A stretch of 51,809 nucleotides of DNA, taken from positions 1-51,809 of the forward strand of contig JALSQW010000012.1 of the NCBI GenBank assembly GCA_026985095.1. The letters are read 5' to 3'. This document shows, in pieces, positions 21,864 to 45,868 of the stretch (position 1 is its first letter; every line of letters starts with the position of its first letter). A program made the translations under genes and the position numbers. The notes under the pieces are model-generated. The model was not told the DNA's origin, ran no database searches, and saw nothing but the letters and a program-made list of their open reading frames with translations. The DNA is from Acidimicrobiia bacterium (lineage in GTDB: Bacteria > Actinomycetota > Acidimicrobiia > Spongiisociales > UBA5794).

Positions 21864-23573
21864 TCAGCGCCGGATCGTGAAGGTGTCGGTGGCGGTGCCG
21901 TCGACCGATGTCCAAGTGCCGGTCAGTGCGGTGTCGGACGCGGTGATGGTCAGGAACCCGGCCCCGAAGCTCGGTGTGTTCGGTCCACCGACCACCGCGA
22001 AGTACCCCGCCTCCGGATCGGACGGGTCGACGTCGTAGCCGGACCTCCCCACCCAACCGGTGATGGCGAGAACCGCACCGCTGCCGGCGGCGAACTCGCC
22101 GTCGGTGTCGACCACACACGCCGGTGTGGTGACCCCCACGTCGACACAGGCGAGCTGATGCGACCGCTGGTAGTTGTGTTCGTGGCCCTGAAGGATGAGA
22201 TCCACTCCCCGGGCGATCATGTCGTCCATCATCGCCTCGCCGATGGCACACGACTTGACACCGGCGGTCACACAGTTCTCGTGCATCCCCACGACCGTCC
22301 AGCGGCCCGCCGCCTCCGACTCGGCGATCCGAGCCCGCAGCCAGTCGCGGTGCGGGCCGGTCGTGTAGTCGTAGTCGACGCCGTCGACCGACAGGTTGGG
22401 AGCGATCATGATGACCCGCACCCCTCCGACGTCGAAGGCGTACTGGACGCCGTAGTCGCCCGACGCGCCCATCGCGTCCGGAAGGCAGGCCGCGAAGTCG
22501 CGGATGAACCCATCGACCCGCGAGTCGTCCTCGTGGTTCCCCACCACCACCTCGACGGGATGGGTCGCCCCCACGGAGTTCTGCACCATCGAGCACCACG
22601 CAGACGCCGTCGGCGTCTCATCGTAGGAAAGGTCGCCGAGCGCGAGGTGGAAGTCGGCGCCGGCGTCGCCGATCGCCGTCAACACCCGCCGAGCCTGGGA
22701 TGTGGCGCCGATGTCCCCCGCCGCGGTGAACACCACGTCGCTGCCACCGGGCACCGGGTCGGCGGGCAGGCCGAACGATCCCGCCACCGGCAGCCACTCG
22801 GTGTCTCCCCAGGGGACGATCTCGTCGGCGACGCCCTGCGTGTTGGCGTGGCGCAGATAGAACGAACGGTCGGAGGGACGGAACAGGCCCGGGGTGTCGA
22901 CCTGGTCCCCGGTCCAGTCGCCGGCGACGAACCGATCGGCGGGGTCGCCGTAGAAGAACTGCACGTCGGCCAGCCCCGGCGTGTGGGAGTTCCGGAGATA
23001 CACGAACCCGGTGGATGACCGATGGAGTCCGACGGTGTCGACACCGTCGCCGTCGAAATCACCTGCGAACGGTACGTCGCCGGGGTTCCCGAAGTCGTAG
23101 GCGATCTCCGCCGCACCGAGGCCTGCGCCGTCGTCGCCGAGACGGTTCACGATGTAGACCTTCCCCTCCGAGGCTCGATACACCGAGACGGTGTCACAAC
23201 CGTCGCCATCGAAGTCCCCGGCGATCGGAACGTCCTGCGGGTCGCCGAGGAAGTACTTGCGATCGGCGACCCCCGGCGAGTTGGAGTTCCGCAGGTACAC
23301 GTAGCCGTCACTGCGCCGGTACATCCCCGGCGTGTCGATCCCGTCGCAATCCCAATCCCCGACCAGAGGAACGTCGCCGGGGTTCCCATAGAAGAAGGAC
23401 CGCACGCCACCCGCCTCGTCGCGCAGGTACCACAGCCCTTGGGCCGGATCGACGAGCCCGATCGTGTCGGACGCCGATCCGCTGGGCGCTGCCGACGCGC
23501 CGCCGGCGGCCCCGGTCGCGAGCGCGACGGCGGCGAGGGCCACCGCGACCGGCGTGAACCCGAACGTCTTCAC
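21864..23573 (-). CDS. Secreted calcineurin-like phosphoesterase with N-terminal FG-GAP-like module
   Basis: 569 residues from GTG 23573, which has a strong AGGAGG 6 nt upstream and also overlaps the upstream GT4 stop as GTGA. Residues about 1-29 form a signal peptide. Residues about 37-268 are the shared repeat module, with Asp-rich DxDxDG-type loops (GDWDCDGIDTPG at 72-83, GDFDGDGCDT at 119-128, GDFDGDGVDT at 171-180). Residues about 278-569 form the metallophosphoesterase: D287 (AAGDIG), D314 (LGDLSY), N346-H347 (GNHE), H431 (GMHENC), H464 and H466 (GHEHNYQRS). The GHEHNYQR block resembles purple acid phosphatases. It should act outside the cell on a phosphate ester or diester, perhaps of the surface glycan. 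The substrate is unknown. Confidence 0.87.
   Translation of the reverse strand: MKTFGFTPVAVALAAVALATGAAGGASAAPSGSASDTIGLVDPAQGLWYLRDEAGGVRSFFYGNPGDVPLVGDWDCDGIDTPGMYRRSDGYVYLRNSNSPGVADRKYFLGDPQDVPIAGDFDGDGCDTVSVYRASEGKVYIVNRLGDDGAGLGAAEIAYDFGNPGDVPFAGDFDGDGVDTVGLHRSSTGFVYLRNSHTPGLADVQFFYGDPADRFVAGDWTGDQVDTPGLFRPSDRSFYLRHANTQGVADEIVPWGDTEWLPVAGSFGLPADPVPGGSDVVFTAAGDIGATSQARRVLTAIGDAGADFHLALGDLSYDETPTASAWCSMVQNSVGATHPVEVVVGNHEDDSRVDGFIRDFAACLPDAMGASGDYGVQYAFDVGGVRVIMIAPNLSVDGVDYDYTTGPHRDWLRARIAESEAAGRWTVVGMHENCVTAGVKSCAIGEAMMDDMIARGVDLILQGHEHNYQRSHQLACVDVGVTTPACVVDTDGEFAAGSGAVLAITGWVGRSGYDVDPSDPEAGYFAVVGGPNTPSFGAGFLTITASDTALTGTWTSVDGTATDTFTIRR
22770..23465 (-). repeat. FG-GAP-like module in the phosphoesterase
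   Basis: Four blades in a fixed order: a GDWDCDGIDTPG blade ending in YRRSDGYVYLRN, a GDFDGDGCDTVS blade ending in VYIVNRLG, a GDFDGDGVDTVGLHR blade, and a GDW(T)GDQVDTPGLFRPS blade that ends at the LPVAG cap. The same order is seen in the other two complete copies. Confidence 0.85.
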
Positions 23574-31481: not shown

Positions 31482-33746
31482 TCAGGGTCCGGTCCGGAAG
31501 GACCCGACGATCGGCCTGGTGGTGCTCCCACCGTGGGCGTGGAGATGAACGACATGGTCTGCCGACCCCGGCCTGTTCGCGAGACTGATGTACCAGTTGC
31601 CGTCGGAGGGACGGAAGACGGCGACCGTGTCCGTCCCGTCGCCGTTCCAGTCGGCGGCGACAACGGTATCGCCGGGGTCACCGTACACGAACTCGATGTC
31701 GGCCGGCCCGTCGGCCTGCTCGAGCCGCAGATAGACCCGACCCGTCGACACCCGATGCAGCCCGACGTCGTCCCTGCCGTCCCCGTCGAAGTCGCCGACG
31801 AACGGCACGTCGCCGGGATCGCCGAAGGTGAACGACCGGTCGGCACTCCCGAGACCCTGGCTGCCGGAACCGAGCCGGTCGATGATGTAGACCCGATGCT
31901 CGGCCGCCCGGAAGATCGAGACCGTGTCGCAGCCGTCGCCGTCGAAATCCCCCACCAGCGGCAGGTCGCCGGGGTTCCCGAAGAAGAACTCGACGTCGGC
32001 GACCCCCTGGCTGTTGGCGTTGCGCAGGTACACGTACCCGTCCGAGCGGCGGTAGAGCCCCGGGGTGGCGATCCCGTCGCAATCCCAGTCCCCCATGAAC
32101 GGGACGTCTCCGGGGTTCCCGTAGAAGAACTCGTTCGTCTCGTGCTCGGAGGCGGGAGCGTCGGCGAGGGTCCAACGGCCACCATCGTCCACGTACCCGA
32201 TGGAGGCGCAGGTGGCCCCCGGTGGGCACTCGGGCCCCGCGTCCCACGGGATGACCGTCGCCGGAACGAACCATTCGGTCAGGCTCCCGTCGATCGCCCG
32301 GTCCCCGCCGAGGCGCACCGACAGGTTGGCACCGTCGAGGACGTACAGGTCGTCCCTCCCGTCGCCGTCGTAGTCGGAGATGAGGAGGCGCGCGCCCAGG
32401 GGGATGCCCCGGTTCAGCGGGAACGACGCCCGCTGTCCGGCGGCGGTGACGACCCGCACCTCGGGCCGGTCGCCCTTGCGCACCAGGTACAGGTCGGTAC
32501 GACCGTCGACGTCCCAGTCCCCGAGGAGCGGCGCCCACAGGTCCCGGTCGGAGGTGTCCACCAGATCGGGATCCAGCGTTCCGACCACCGAGGTGTACGA
32601 GGATGCTCCGGACCAGATGACCGCGATGGTCGGTCCGGAGCGTTGCAGGGCGACGAGATCCACGAGATAGTCGTCGTCGTAGAAGGTCAGGCCGTAGTCG
32701 TCGGCTGCCGGCACGTCGGTGTCCCACCGTGCGATGACGTCCTGGAAGCCCGACCGGTGGGACCGAACCTCGATCCGGACGGTCCCTCCCGAGTCGTCGA
32801 TGAGCCACAGGTCGGCTCGTCCGTCACCGTCGTGATCGGCCAGCAACGACTCCGTGCCGAGGTCCGCGTCGATGTCGGCGCGGTAGCCGATCCGGTCGAA
32901 GCCGGTGACCGATCCGGCGGCCTCGACCCGCGTACCGGATGGTCCCGGCAGCCATCGGACGAGGTCCGCGGAGCCGTCGCCGGACAGGTCGGCCAGGGCG
33001 AACCGGGCCCCGGGGGCGTCACCGATCACCGACGGCACCGACACCGCGACGGGGCCGAAGGGGATGGGGTTGGTCACCGGCGGGTACGGCGCCGGACGAC
33101 CCGTGTAGCCGGGGGTGGCCACCGGGCCGTTCCATGAGAAGTGCATGGCGTCCTTGACGTTGATCCACTGCCCTCCCCAGCAGAACCCCGCGGAACGCCA
33201 CAGGTCGACGAACCACGAGGGCATGTCGGTGATGAGCGTGTTGGTGCGGCTGTAAGGGTTCCGTCCGGGGTTGACATCGATGGCCGATCCGAACGCGTGC
33301 TCCGAGACCCGCGTGGTGCCGCCGACGGTGCGCCACACCCACGACGCGGCGGCGTCGATGTCGTAGAACAGCCCGTTGCTGCGGGCCTCGGCGATCTTCT
33401 GGTCGACCAGCGCCGCGGCGGGCCGCAGGCGCTCGTGGAGGTCGACGGTCTGGTCGGTGCCGAAGATCGTCCACTTGAACGTCGATCCCTGCACCTGGGC
33501 CTTCGTCCTGCCGTAGAAGTCGGCCCACGGGCCGTAGAGCACGTCGCTGGTGCGCAGATAGCCGTAGTGGTCGACCTCGGGTCGGGCGGGGCCGGCGACA
33601 CCGATGTCGCATCCCTCCGACTCGGCGAGGTTCGTCACCCCGGATCCTGCGTCGCTGGGGATGGCCATCGCAGGCACGGCCGGCACGAGGAGCCAGACCA
33701 CCAGGCCGATGAGGACCGCGAGCTTCGCTGGACGCGTCATGGGCAT
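31482..33746 (-). CDS. Secreted M15-type peptidase with FG-GAP repeats and C-terminal shared module
   Basis: 754 residues. A signal peptide spans about 1-28. Residues about 55-205 form a VanY/M15-type D-Ala-D-Ala peptidase domain: SEHAFGSAID (H150, D157) and DAMHF (H202) are the expected Zn2+ ligands, so it should cut peptidoglycan stem peptides. Residues about 235-495 hold FG-GAP/VCBS repeats (LADLSGDGSADLV, LADHDGDGRADLWL, LGDWDVDGRTDLYL, ISDYDGDGRDDLYV), likely a beta-propeller. Residues about 501-754 are the shared module, entered by CPPGATC. TAACCT ends only 3 nt before ATG 33746, so ATG 33740 (9 nt) may be the true start. It sits in the operon between the sugar-1-phosphate transferase and two GT4 genes. 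Confidence 0.87.
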   Translation of the reverse strand: MPMTRPAKLAVLIGLVVWLLVPAVPAMAIPSDAGSGVTNLAESEGCDIGVAGPARPEVDHYGYLRTSDVLYGPWADFYGRTKAQVQGSTFKWTIFGTDQTVDLHERLRPAAALVDQKIAEARSNGLFYDIDAAASWVWRTVGGTTRVSEHAFGSAIDVNPGRNPYSRTNTLITDMPSWFVDLWRSAGFCWGGQWINVKDAMHFSWNGPVATPGYTGRPAPYPPVTNPIPFGPVAVSVPSVIGDAPGARFALADLSGDGSADLVRWLPGPSGTRVEAAGSVTGFDRIGYRADIDADLGTESLLADHDGDGRADLWLIDDSGGTVRIEVRSHRSGFQDVIARWDTDVPAADDYGLTFYDDDYLVDLVALQRSGPTIAVIWSGASSYTSVVGTLDPDLVDTSDRDLWAPLLGDWDVDGRTDLYLVRKGDRPEVRVVTAAGQRASFPLNRGIPLGARLLISDYDGDGRDDLYVLDGANLSVRLGGDRAIDGSLTEWFVPATVIPWDAGPECPPGATCASIGYVDDGGRWTLADAPASEHETNEFFYGNPGDVPFMGDWDCDGIATPGLYRRSDGYVYLRNANSQGVADVEFFFGNPGDLPLVGDFDGDGCDTVSIFRAAEHRVYIIDRLGSGSQGLGSADRSFTFGDPGDVPFVGDFDGDGRDDVGLHRVSTGRVYLRLEQADGPADIEFVYGDPGDTVVAADWNGDGTDTVAVFRPSDGNWYISLANRPGSADHVVHLHAHGGSTTRPIVGSFRTGP
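31485..32246 (-). repeat. FG-GAP-like module at the C-terminus of the M15 protein
   Basis: About 254 residues with the same ordered blades as the other copies: GDWDCDGIATPGLYRRSDG, GDFDGDGCDTVSIFR, GDFDGDGRDDVGLHR, and ADWNGDGTDTVAVFRPSDG. The entry strand GYVDDGGRWTL preceded by CPPGATC matches the GH26-like protein at the left edge. Confidence 0.85.
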
Positions 33747-43521: not shown

Positions 43522-45837
43522 TCAGTTCTCGCGGAGCGAGTACTCCAGCATCATGTCGGGGACCCGCGGCAGTTCCTGGCGGTTCCCTGCGCCACCGATC
43601 TGGTAGCAGGTGTAGGCGAACAGCCACGGGTCCGTGGCACTGCAGCGGATCGAGTTCGCGGTGGGGTTCAACGCGAACTCGAGCCGGAACCCAGGCTCGA
43701 CGTACTGCCGGACGGCGTTCCATGCCGACGCCGCCAGCCGGCGAGTGGCGTACGGGTCGGTGAAGTACTCGCCGGTGCCCAGCGCGTGGTCGGCGTCGAA
43801 CGAGAACGCCCCGCGCCAGCTCGCCATCCCCAGGGTCCGTCGGGTGCCGTTGTTGCGTTCGACGTTTCTGAGGGCGACGTCGTTGCAGGCGAAATCGACG
43901 CAGTGGGACATCGGGTTGCGGATGTCGAATCGATGATCGAAGTCGATCATGCCCAGGTTGACGACCGCCGGCGTCTCATCACGGCTGGCCCAGCGCTCGT
44001 AGTTGTTGGACGCGGGTCCGACGTTGAGCGACCTCGTTCGGTAGTCCCCCACCTGGTCGGAGAGTGCAGGCATCGAATAGCCGCACCCCGACGGGTTGAG
44101 CAGCACGTCGCCACCGTCGGAGGTGGCGAACGCTGCGCCGTAGTCGTTCTTGAACGAGGCGCTGAACTTCTCGTTCCCGGCGAGGTCGTAGACGGCGACG
44201 ATGAGCGTGTGGAACCTGGCGCAGACGCGCCGGTCGTGGGCAGAGTTGGAATGGATGACGAACCGGACCCAGAAGTTGCCGGTCATGTCCTTGAAGATGA
44301 ACTCCTTGAACCCGGCGTCGGGTTCGAGTTGGGGAACCCGGGCGGCGGTGTACTGGTACGGGATCTTGGGCGAACCGGGGATGAGGTCCGGGTTCGAGCC
44401 GTGTTCGTGACCGAAGGAGCACCAGTACACCGGGTCGATCTGGGGATGCCAGGTGCCGTACCGACGTCCATCGGGGCCCGTGGTCGTGTACAGATCGTGG
44501 ACCCAGGGAGGGCAGGTCGCGTTCGGGCGGGCCTCGTAGCCGTTCGGCGTCGGCGGCGCCGGCGATGGGCGGCCGTTCTCCTCGGCGAGGAGGACGAGGT
44601 ACATGCGCCGCCAGTCGCCCGAGACCTCGACGGTTCCCAGGCTCACGTCGCCGGCCGGATAGGCCTTCTCGTAGACGGTTCGGATGTCGCCATCGATGAT
44701 GACGGTGCCGCCGACGTCCCATCCCGACAGCCATGCCGCCGGGGGCTCGTCGTCCCTCCAGACGACGGCGACCCGGGCGGGTCGGTTCACGGTGAAATGC
44801 ATCCAGTCGTCACGCGGCCCGTAGTTGAGGAACTCCCATCGGGTGGACGGCGACAGTACGTCCCATCCTCCGTAGCGCCCGGGACTGTCGACGATGGCGG
44901 TGCGGTCGGGATCGGGTTCGATGTCGAGTCCCTTGCGGAAGCTCCGCGGCCAGTACTTCATGTCGCGGACCTCGATCTCGACACCCTCGGCCGTGTCGCG
45001 TTCGACGTGGTAGCGGGCGACCAACGTGCGGTCGGCGGCCGCGAGGGCGAATCCGCTCGGTGCGCGCCATCGGCCGGCGATCGGCAGCCATCCCTCGTTG
45101 CCGACCTGGAAGGACTCGTCGGCCCCACCCGACGAGTTCTCGTTCCTGAGGTAGAAGGTGCCGTTGGAGGGCCGGAAGACGCCGGGAGTGTCGATGCCGT
45201 CGCCGTCCCAGTCGCCTGCCACGTAGCGGTCCGCCGGATCGCCGAAGATCATGAGGACGTCGGCGGGTCCCGAGGTGTGCTCGTTCTTGAGGAACACCTC
45301 GCCGGTCGATGGTCGATGGAGACCGATCGTGTCGATGCCGTCGCCGTCGAAGTCGCCGACGAACGGCACGTCGGAAGGGTTACCGAAGACGTAGCTGTAG
45401 TCGGCTGGGCCGAGGGAACCGCCGTTGGGTCCGAGATGGTTGGAGATGTAGATCCGCTGCTCGGACGGGCGGTAGATGGAGACGGTGTCGATGCCGTCGC
45501 CGTCGAAGTCGCCGACGAGGGGCACGTCGGAGGGGTTCCCGAAGAAGTAGGTGATGTCGGCGACGCCTTGGATGTTGGTGTTGGTCAGATAGACGAATCC
45601 GTCGCTTCGGCGGAACAAGCCGGGCGTGTCCTCGCCGTTGCCGTCCCAGTCGCCCAGGAAGGGCGTGTCGGCCGGGTTCCCGAAGAAGAACGGCACGTTG
45701 TCACCCAGCTTCCATTGGCCTTGCTGGGGGTTGAACAGGCCGGGTTCGTCGGGTTCGGCGGCCAACGCCGCGGTACCCATGACGAGCGAGGTGATGAGGG
45801 CGGCACCCACCACGAACATGCGTCTCGAAGGTCTCAC
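43522..45837 (-). CDS. Secreted protein: N-terminal FG-GAP-like module plus unrecognised ~500-aa domain
   Basis: 771 residues from GTG 45837. An in-frame ATG at 45864 overlaps the -10 hexamer TACGAT, so it is probably upstream of the transcript; AAGGAAGG precedes the GTG by about 9 nt. A signal peptide (about 1-27) is followed by the shared module (about 31-258): GDWDGNGEDTPGLFRRSDG, GDFDGDGIDTVSIYRPSE, GDFDGDGIDTIGLHRPSTG, GDWDGDGIDTPGVFRPSNG and LPIAGRW. Residues about 265-771 match no family known to me. They include MHFTVNRPARVAVVW, WCSFGHEHGSNPDLIPG, FVIHSNSAHDRRVCARFH and several Cys residues (for example NPSGCGYSMP, HCVDFACND), hinting at an extracellular metal site or disulphides. It sits between glyA and the atp operon. 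Confidence 0.85.
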   Translation of the reverse strand: MRPSRRMFVVGAALITSLVMGTAALAAEPDEPGLFNPQQGQWKLGDNVPFFFGNPADTPFLGDWDGNGEDTPGLFRRSDGFVYLTNTNIQGVADITYFFGNPSDVPLVGDFDGDGIDTVSIYRPSEQRIYISNHLGPNGGSLGPADYSYVFGNPSDVPFVGDFDGDGIDTIGLHRPSTGEVFLKNEHTSGPADVLMIFGDPADRYVAGDWDGDGIDTPGVFRPSNGTFYLRNENSSGGADESFQVGNEGWLPIAGRWRAPSGFALAAADRTLVARYHVERDTAEGVEIEVRDMKYWPRSFRKGLDIEPDPDRTAIVDSPGRYGGWDVLSPSTRWEFLNYGPRDDWMHFTVNRPARVAVVWRDDEPPAAWLSGWDVGGTVIIDGDIRTVYEKAYPAGDVSLGTVEVSGDWRRMYLVLLAEENGRPSPAPPTPNGYEARPNATCPPWVHDLYTTTGPDGRRYGTWHPQIDPVYWCSFGHEHGSNPDLIPGSPKIPYQYTAARVPQLEPDAGFKEFIFKDMTGNFWVRFVIHSNSAHDRRVCARFHTLIVAVYDLAGNEKFSASFKNDYGAAFATSDGGDVLLNPSGCGYSMPALSDQVGDYRTRSLNVGPASNNYERWASRDETPAVVNLGMIDFDHRFDIRNPMSHCVDFACNDVALRNVERNNGTRRTLGMASWRGAFSFDADHALGTGEYFTDPYATRRLAASAWNAVRQYVEPGFRLEFALNPTANSIRCSATDPWLFAYTCYQIGGAGNRQELPRVPDMMLEYSLREN
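45064..45747 (-). repeat. FG-GAP-like module in the secreted protein between glyA and atp
   Basis: Residues about 31-258 with four blades and the LPIAG cap, in the same order as the phosphoesterase and M15 copies. It is N-terminal here, as in the phosphoesterase. Confidence 0.85.
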
Positions 45838-45862
45838 CGGTCGTCCTTCCTTCGGAACGCTC

Positions 45863-45868
45863 ATCGTA
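45863..45868 (-). promoter_or_regulatory. Putative -10 element of the secreted module protein gene
   Basis: TACGAT on the minus strand puts the transcript start near 45856, downstream of ATG 45864 and upstream of the AAGGAAGG ribosome binding site and GTG 45837. This decides the start codon. Confidence 0.5.

Follow-up and report, generated by a model that had tools for sequence, protein, structure and literature searches.

An Undescribed, Predicted All-β Domain with Five Conserved Histidines in a Putatively Secreted Modular Protein of an Acidimicrobiia Bacterium

The window analyzed here, a stretch of 51,809 nucleotides from an Acidimicrobiia bacterium, encodes a protein that as a modular secreted protein is of a known kind, and that ends in a domain of 335 aa, D2, that is undescribed in Pfam, NCBIfam, PHROGs, and PDB; the lack of matches is no proof that its fold is new. 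The best explanation, to which we assign a probability of roughly 0.5, is that D2 is a secreted metalloenzyme or metal-binding domain directed at extracellular glycans. Likely metal ligands that are fixed across the family and a partner module of a type known from enzymes acting on uronic acids together provide a concrete hypothesis for D2.

Gene and Domain Architecture

The gene is an open reading frame on the minus strand (43522–45864) that encodes 780 aa from an ATG; the start at 45837 given in a preliminary description of the sequence is an in-frame GTG at codon 10 of this frame. The GC content at the three codon positions is 0.62, 0.49, and 0.88 within surrounding DNA of 69% GC, which is in keeping with a real gene. 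Its product comprises, in this order, the following parts, of which D1 and D2 were delimited by HMMs:

45760..45864, minus strand: probable signal peptide and start, residues 1–35, MFVVGAALITSLVMGTAALAA, in which charged residues lead into a hydrophobic core and then an Ala-rich end (read by eye)
45058..45750, minus strand: FG-GAP-like (integrin-like) repeat module, residues ~39–269, recognized from its motifs and from two further copies in the window
44542..45048, minus strand: D1, residues 273–441, predicted β-sandwich (AlphaFold model and VIA-align comparison)
43525..44529, minus strand: D2, residues 446–780, predicted all-β domain with five conserved His that reaches the C terminus of the protein (alignments and AlphaFold model)

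The FG-GAP-like module contains four G-D-[FW]-D-G-[DN]-G motifs (at residues 71, 118, 170, and 217). The preliminary description had regarded it as shared with proteins that carry enzymatic domains, and both points are borne out, because copies are present at 22764–23468 (60% identity), in a protein with a calcineurin-like phosphoesterase domain (Metallophos), and at 31530–32180 (57% identity), in a protein with a Peptidase_M15_4 domain and FG-GAP repeats. The latter protein matches the Pfam model FG-GAP_3, and its homology to the N-terminal module is what the window protein has in common with FG-GAP repeat proteins (PF13517/PF01839), whereas the window protein itself does not match any Pfam model at E ≤ 1. 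With copies in three proteins of the window, the module appears to be an interchangeable display module in this genome region.

The gene is located upstream of the atp genes and adjoins glyA, a neighborhood common only to one contig of the same genus (L036). Because only this contig has that neighborhood, we consider the adjacent atp operon incidental and rejected a functional link to it. A dense cluster of genes for glycosyltransferases, dTDP-sugar enzymes, and a sugar transferase at ~10793–35094 of the window has the appearance of a surface polysaccharide locus.

D1, a Predicted β-Sandwich of Known Fold

The C-terminal 510 aa had been described as a single unrecognized secreted domain of about 500 residues, possibly a new extracellular enzyme or binding domain, and indeed match no sequence model or entry in Pfam, NCBIfam, PHROGs, or PDB. 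The region is real but is composed of two domains. A known domain accounts for about one third of it, the first ~165 residues (D1), which have the fold of a domain in PDB entry 6HPD (Z 16.1); the remaining two thirds, the last 335 residues (D2), match no profile and no credible fold, and for D2 an enzyme or binding domain of a new kind remains a candidate suggested by its sequence.

In the AlphaFold model of the whole 510-residue part (pLDDT 84, pTM 0.83), D1 superposes on the C-terminal β-sandwich of the GH2 β-glucuronidase 6HPD (residues 848–990) with a Z of 16.1 and an rmsd of 2.5 over 137 residues (VIA-align), at 15% identity across the aligned residues, and on the C-terminal domain of the GH138 enzyme BP0997 (6HZE/6HZF) with a Z of 9.6 and an rmsd of 2.9–3.0 over 123–124 residues. 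VIA-align matches below these are unrelated (Z about 4). Unlike in 6HPD, D1 is joined to D2 rather than to a GH2 catalytic core, and unlike BP0997 the window protein has no GH138 catalytic domain. A D1 profile built from 22 sequences retrieved nothing among PDB sequences at E ≤ 10, so the relation of D1 to 6HPD is a likeness of fold without support from sequence. The enzymes that host domains of the 6HPD/6HZE type act on uronic-acid polysaccharides, which makes glycan recognition by D1 a reasonable guess; by analogy with these relatives, which are accessory domains, D1 probably recognizes an extracellular polysaccharide. D1 never occurs without D2 in our collected set, whereas D2 often occurs without D1; this set was gathered with queries that contain D2, so that a free-standing D1 would escape detection. 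The predicted structure of an uncharacterized protein of the algal virus Tetraselmis virus 1 (A0A2P0VNA9, from BFVD) aligns across nearly the entire D1–D2 model (Foldseek E 3.4e-8, probability 1.00), but with a low overall TM (0.22) and 13% identity.

Conservation of D2

The boundary between D1 and D2 is set by a protein (L038) belonging to a different class of the window's phylum, in which a signal peptide is followed by the last ~335 residues only. We aligned 41 members of the D2 family, with identities to the window sequence down to 18%. Ten columns are invariant in all 41 (W27, P29, C37, H43, P47, K75, H107, E178, W180, and R231; numbering within D2), and five His (H28, H41, H43, H93, and H107) are each conserved in at least 39 of the 41 (95% or more). 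The window sequence carries all five as well as W27, P29, C37, K75, E178, W180, and R231. Five of its ten His fall in the 16 of 335 columns conserved at ≥95%, an enrichment with a hypergeometric P of about 3e-5 if relatedness among the sequences is ignored. Judged from this alignment, D2 is a real, old family. Its most conserved positions map to the window as follows:

44401..44448, minus strand: core motif HPQIDPVYWCSFGHEH, with H28 (44446–44448) and H41 (44407–44409) in 40/41 and C37 (44419–44421) and H43 (44401–44403) in 41/41
44305..44307, minus strand: Lys K75 of the GFKEF motif, invariant (41/41)
44251..44253, minus strand: His H93, closing a predicted strand, 39/41, the exceptions being two paralogs with a CXXCH motif
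44209..44211, minus strand: His H107 (ARFHT), which opens the following strand, invariant (41/41)
43990..44001, minus strand: Y177-E178-R-W180 (YExW), with E178 and W180 in 41/41 and Y177 in 37/41
43837..43839, minus strand: Arg R231, invariant (41/41)

The four His/Cys-containing stretches that had been singled out in the preliminary description all occur in the protein, and only some of their residues are characteristic of the family. In GHEHG both His, and in SNSAHDRRVCARFH the last one, are invariant or nearly so; H98 is not, and the Cys residues in NPSGCGYS and HCVDFACND recur in many members without being universal. C6 and C37, each near-invariant, may be joined by a disulfide.

Structure Prediction and Search for Relatives of D2

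Because D1 filled the matches of the 510-residue model in both Foldseek and VIA-align searches, D2 was modeled and searched separately. The AlphaFold model of D2 alone, built with 41 sequences, has a pLDDT of 93.1 and a pTM of 0.92. In this model K75 (strand 74–80), H93 (86–93), H107 (106–115), D129 (120–129), E178 (177–183), and R231 (230–237) are located at strand ends, and the loop that carries H28, H41, and H43 precedes them.

No relatives of D2 outside its own family emerged from sequence comparison. Single-sequence and profile searches of PDB sequences with D1, D2, or both found nothing, a Pfam and NCBIfam scan of the 41 members gave no match above the curated cut-offs (scattered weak matches concerned one to three members each), and a PHROGs scan of four members was negative. 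A full-text literature search, which reached few subscription papers, returned no paper on the family. Comparison of the D2 model with PDB gave nothing credible by Foldseek, where the best match (E 0.048, probability 0.06) is an unrelated protein, and no credible fold by VIA-align (best Z 3.9, rmsd 5.5, 124 residues). Weak Foldseek matches to carotenoid oxygenases (probability ≤ 0.14) were dismissed as noise among β-rich proteins, and a reading of the HxH...E...H pattern as a cupin was dropped because the spacing differs and there is no match to a Pfam cupin model.

Distribution and Domain Partners

Homologs from the same bacterial family and order (47–67% identity) and from GTDB genomes together cover Acidimicrobiia, Chloroflexales, Meiothermus, Calidithermus, and other Deinococcales. 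We find D2 in 13 of 60 genomes of the window's family and order, 28 of 111 Deinococcota genomes (with six copies in one genome), 3 of 201 Chloroflexota genomes, the phylum of the Chloroflexales genome, 4 of 149 genomes of the class that includes L038, and 2 of 396 genomes sampled across the window's phylum, its own counted. The family is thus an annotation gap, as a quarter of the searched Deinococcota genomes carry it and yet it falls outside Pfam, NCBIfam, and PHROGs. In the phylogenetic tree, the D2 sequences of Acidimicrobiia form one group (support 99) that includes the window sequence, and those of Deinococcota and Chloroflexota are placed in several positions, which is consistent with old duplications or transfer. 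The gene neighborhoods in Deinococcota are varied, with no consistent partner and no consistent polysaccharide-utilization locus.

D2 is combined with a range of features for surface display (SLH, RTX, Ig-like/Big_7, a lipobox, and FG-GAP) and also makes up small secreted proteins or lipoproteins by itself. It is additionally encoded on five viral contigs; among those from IMG/VR the gene directly follows a portal gene (L107:3981-5981), follows a tail-like gene (L110:4407-5963), or is flanked by genes with ConA-like lectin domains (L111:4569-6092). Searches of plasmids and phage records gave only one weak plasmid match, in a broken gene of Miltoncostaea oceani (L058, NZ_CP064357.1) that appears to be split between frames; a second family gene (G007:C47) also seems broken, into three pieces with an internal TGA.

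Proposed Function and Alternative Readings

Taken as a whole, the sequence suggests that the window protein would be exported and then retained at the cell surface or outside the cell. The FG-GAP-like repeats would be an interchangeable display module, in the place of which relatives use SLH, RTX, or Ig-like repeats or a lipid anchor, and D1, from its fold likeness, would be an accessory β-sandwich that recognizes extracellular polysaccharide. D2 would be the working part, a disulfide-containing all-β domain in which H28, H41, H43, H93, and H107 (together with E69/D129) may bind one or two transition-metal ions. One end of an antiparallel sheet or barrel would hold the predicted site; strand order is all that suggests the clustering of these residues, and K75, E178, and R231 beside the site would be catalytic or anion-binding residues. 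Most likely D2 would cleave or modify an acidic extracellular glycan, or would act on a molecule close to it, with conservation as the evidence for a metal-dependent step.

The retention of the five His together with K75, E178, W180, R231, and C37 down to 18% identity argues for a metalloenzyme, and the resemblance of D1 to ancillary domains of a GH2 β-glucuronidase and a GH138 enzyme argues for a glycan target. The placing of conserved residues at strand ends in the model, the largely joint loss of His in two paralogs, the surface-display partners, and the neighbors of the gene on viral contigs also speak for the proposed reading. Against a metalloenzyme, no enzyme class is supported by any profile or fold match of D2, the varied gene neighborhoods lack a consistent polysaccharide-utilization locus, and the role of the conserved His could instead be to bind a structural metal. 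In the latter case, D2 might be a non-catalytic binding domain that uses its His to coordinate a structural ion (zinc or calcium-like), and the protein would attach to glycans or surfaces as an adhesin or decoration protein. The company that D2 keeps with display and binding modules (FG-GAP, SLH, RTX, Ig-like, and D1), the position of its viral copies amid virion structural and lectin-like genes, and the lack of an enzyme match are all compatible with this alternative. However, the invariant K75, E178, and R231 go beyond metal-type residues and exceed what a structural site needs, D2 also stands alone, and both other proteins of the window with the FG-GAP-like module carry enzyme domains; we consider a purely binding role rather unlikely.

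Two members of the family bear on the nature of the proposed site. These sister paralogs, from one Deinococcota genome, carry CQNCH (L087:6857-8707, minus strand) and CVSCH (L090:6718-8679, plus strand) just before K75, at the place where E69 normally stands, and both have lost H93; one has also lost H28 and H41. That His were lost jointly and a heme-type motif was gained favors the view that these His belong to one cofactor site, and the paralogs are a natural experiment on cofactor replacement. They also lend some weight to D2 as a redox domain (an oxidase, an oxygenase, or an electron transfer domain) in which the His would bind copper or iron, which an HxH together with further His would suit, and c-type heme would replace the site in the two paralogs. 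Yet the motif is heme-c-like by sequence and CXXCH by itself does not prove heme, profile and fold comparisons linked D2 to neither cupredoxins nor LPMOs nor known oxygenases, and no Met-rich or N-terminal-His copper signature is seen in it; a redox domain is quite improbable.

Least probable of all is that D2 belongs, as a highly diverged member, to a known β-barrel superfamily such as that of the lipocalin-like domains (AttH/CrtC type) in fungal Diels-Alderases and in kievitone hydratase: the top six VIA-align matches all have that fold and are Fsa2, Phm7 (twice), CghA, another pericyclase entry, and kievitone hydratase, but their scores (Z 2.6–3.9, rmsd 4.7–6.3, 116–125 residues) are within noise and the best Foldseek match is to none of them. 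The pericyclases Fsa2, Phm7, and CghA are intracellular fungal enzymes. The strand arrangement of their lipocalin-like domains is weakly similar to that of D2, although the likeness is not significant and the conserved residues differ; it is at most a hint, from the model, of a barrel topology in common.

The reading of D2 as a metalloenzyme or metal-binding domain can be extended further: the domain would define a new family of extracellular enzymes in which both the fold and the five-histidine metal center are new, the family would be spread among Actinomycetota, Deinococcota, Chloroflexota, and phages, and one lineage would have swapped the metal site for c-type heme. This extended form is a tentative proposal that we consider doubtful as a whole.

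A Conserved C-Terminal Asparagine

Conservation of the D2 family extends to the last residue of the protein:

43525..43527, minus strand: C-terminal Asn, directly after D2, conserved across the family

The window protein terminates in ...SLREN, and 35 of the 41 aligned sequences end in Asn. Most of the exceptions are shortened in the alignment or extended (by RTX or other sequence); the others comprise two proteins with a final Asp, copies that are broken or truncated, and the protein of one viral contig (L111). The final Asn is kept even in members with 18–25% identity.
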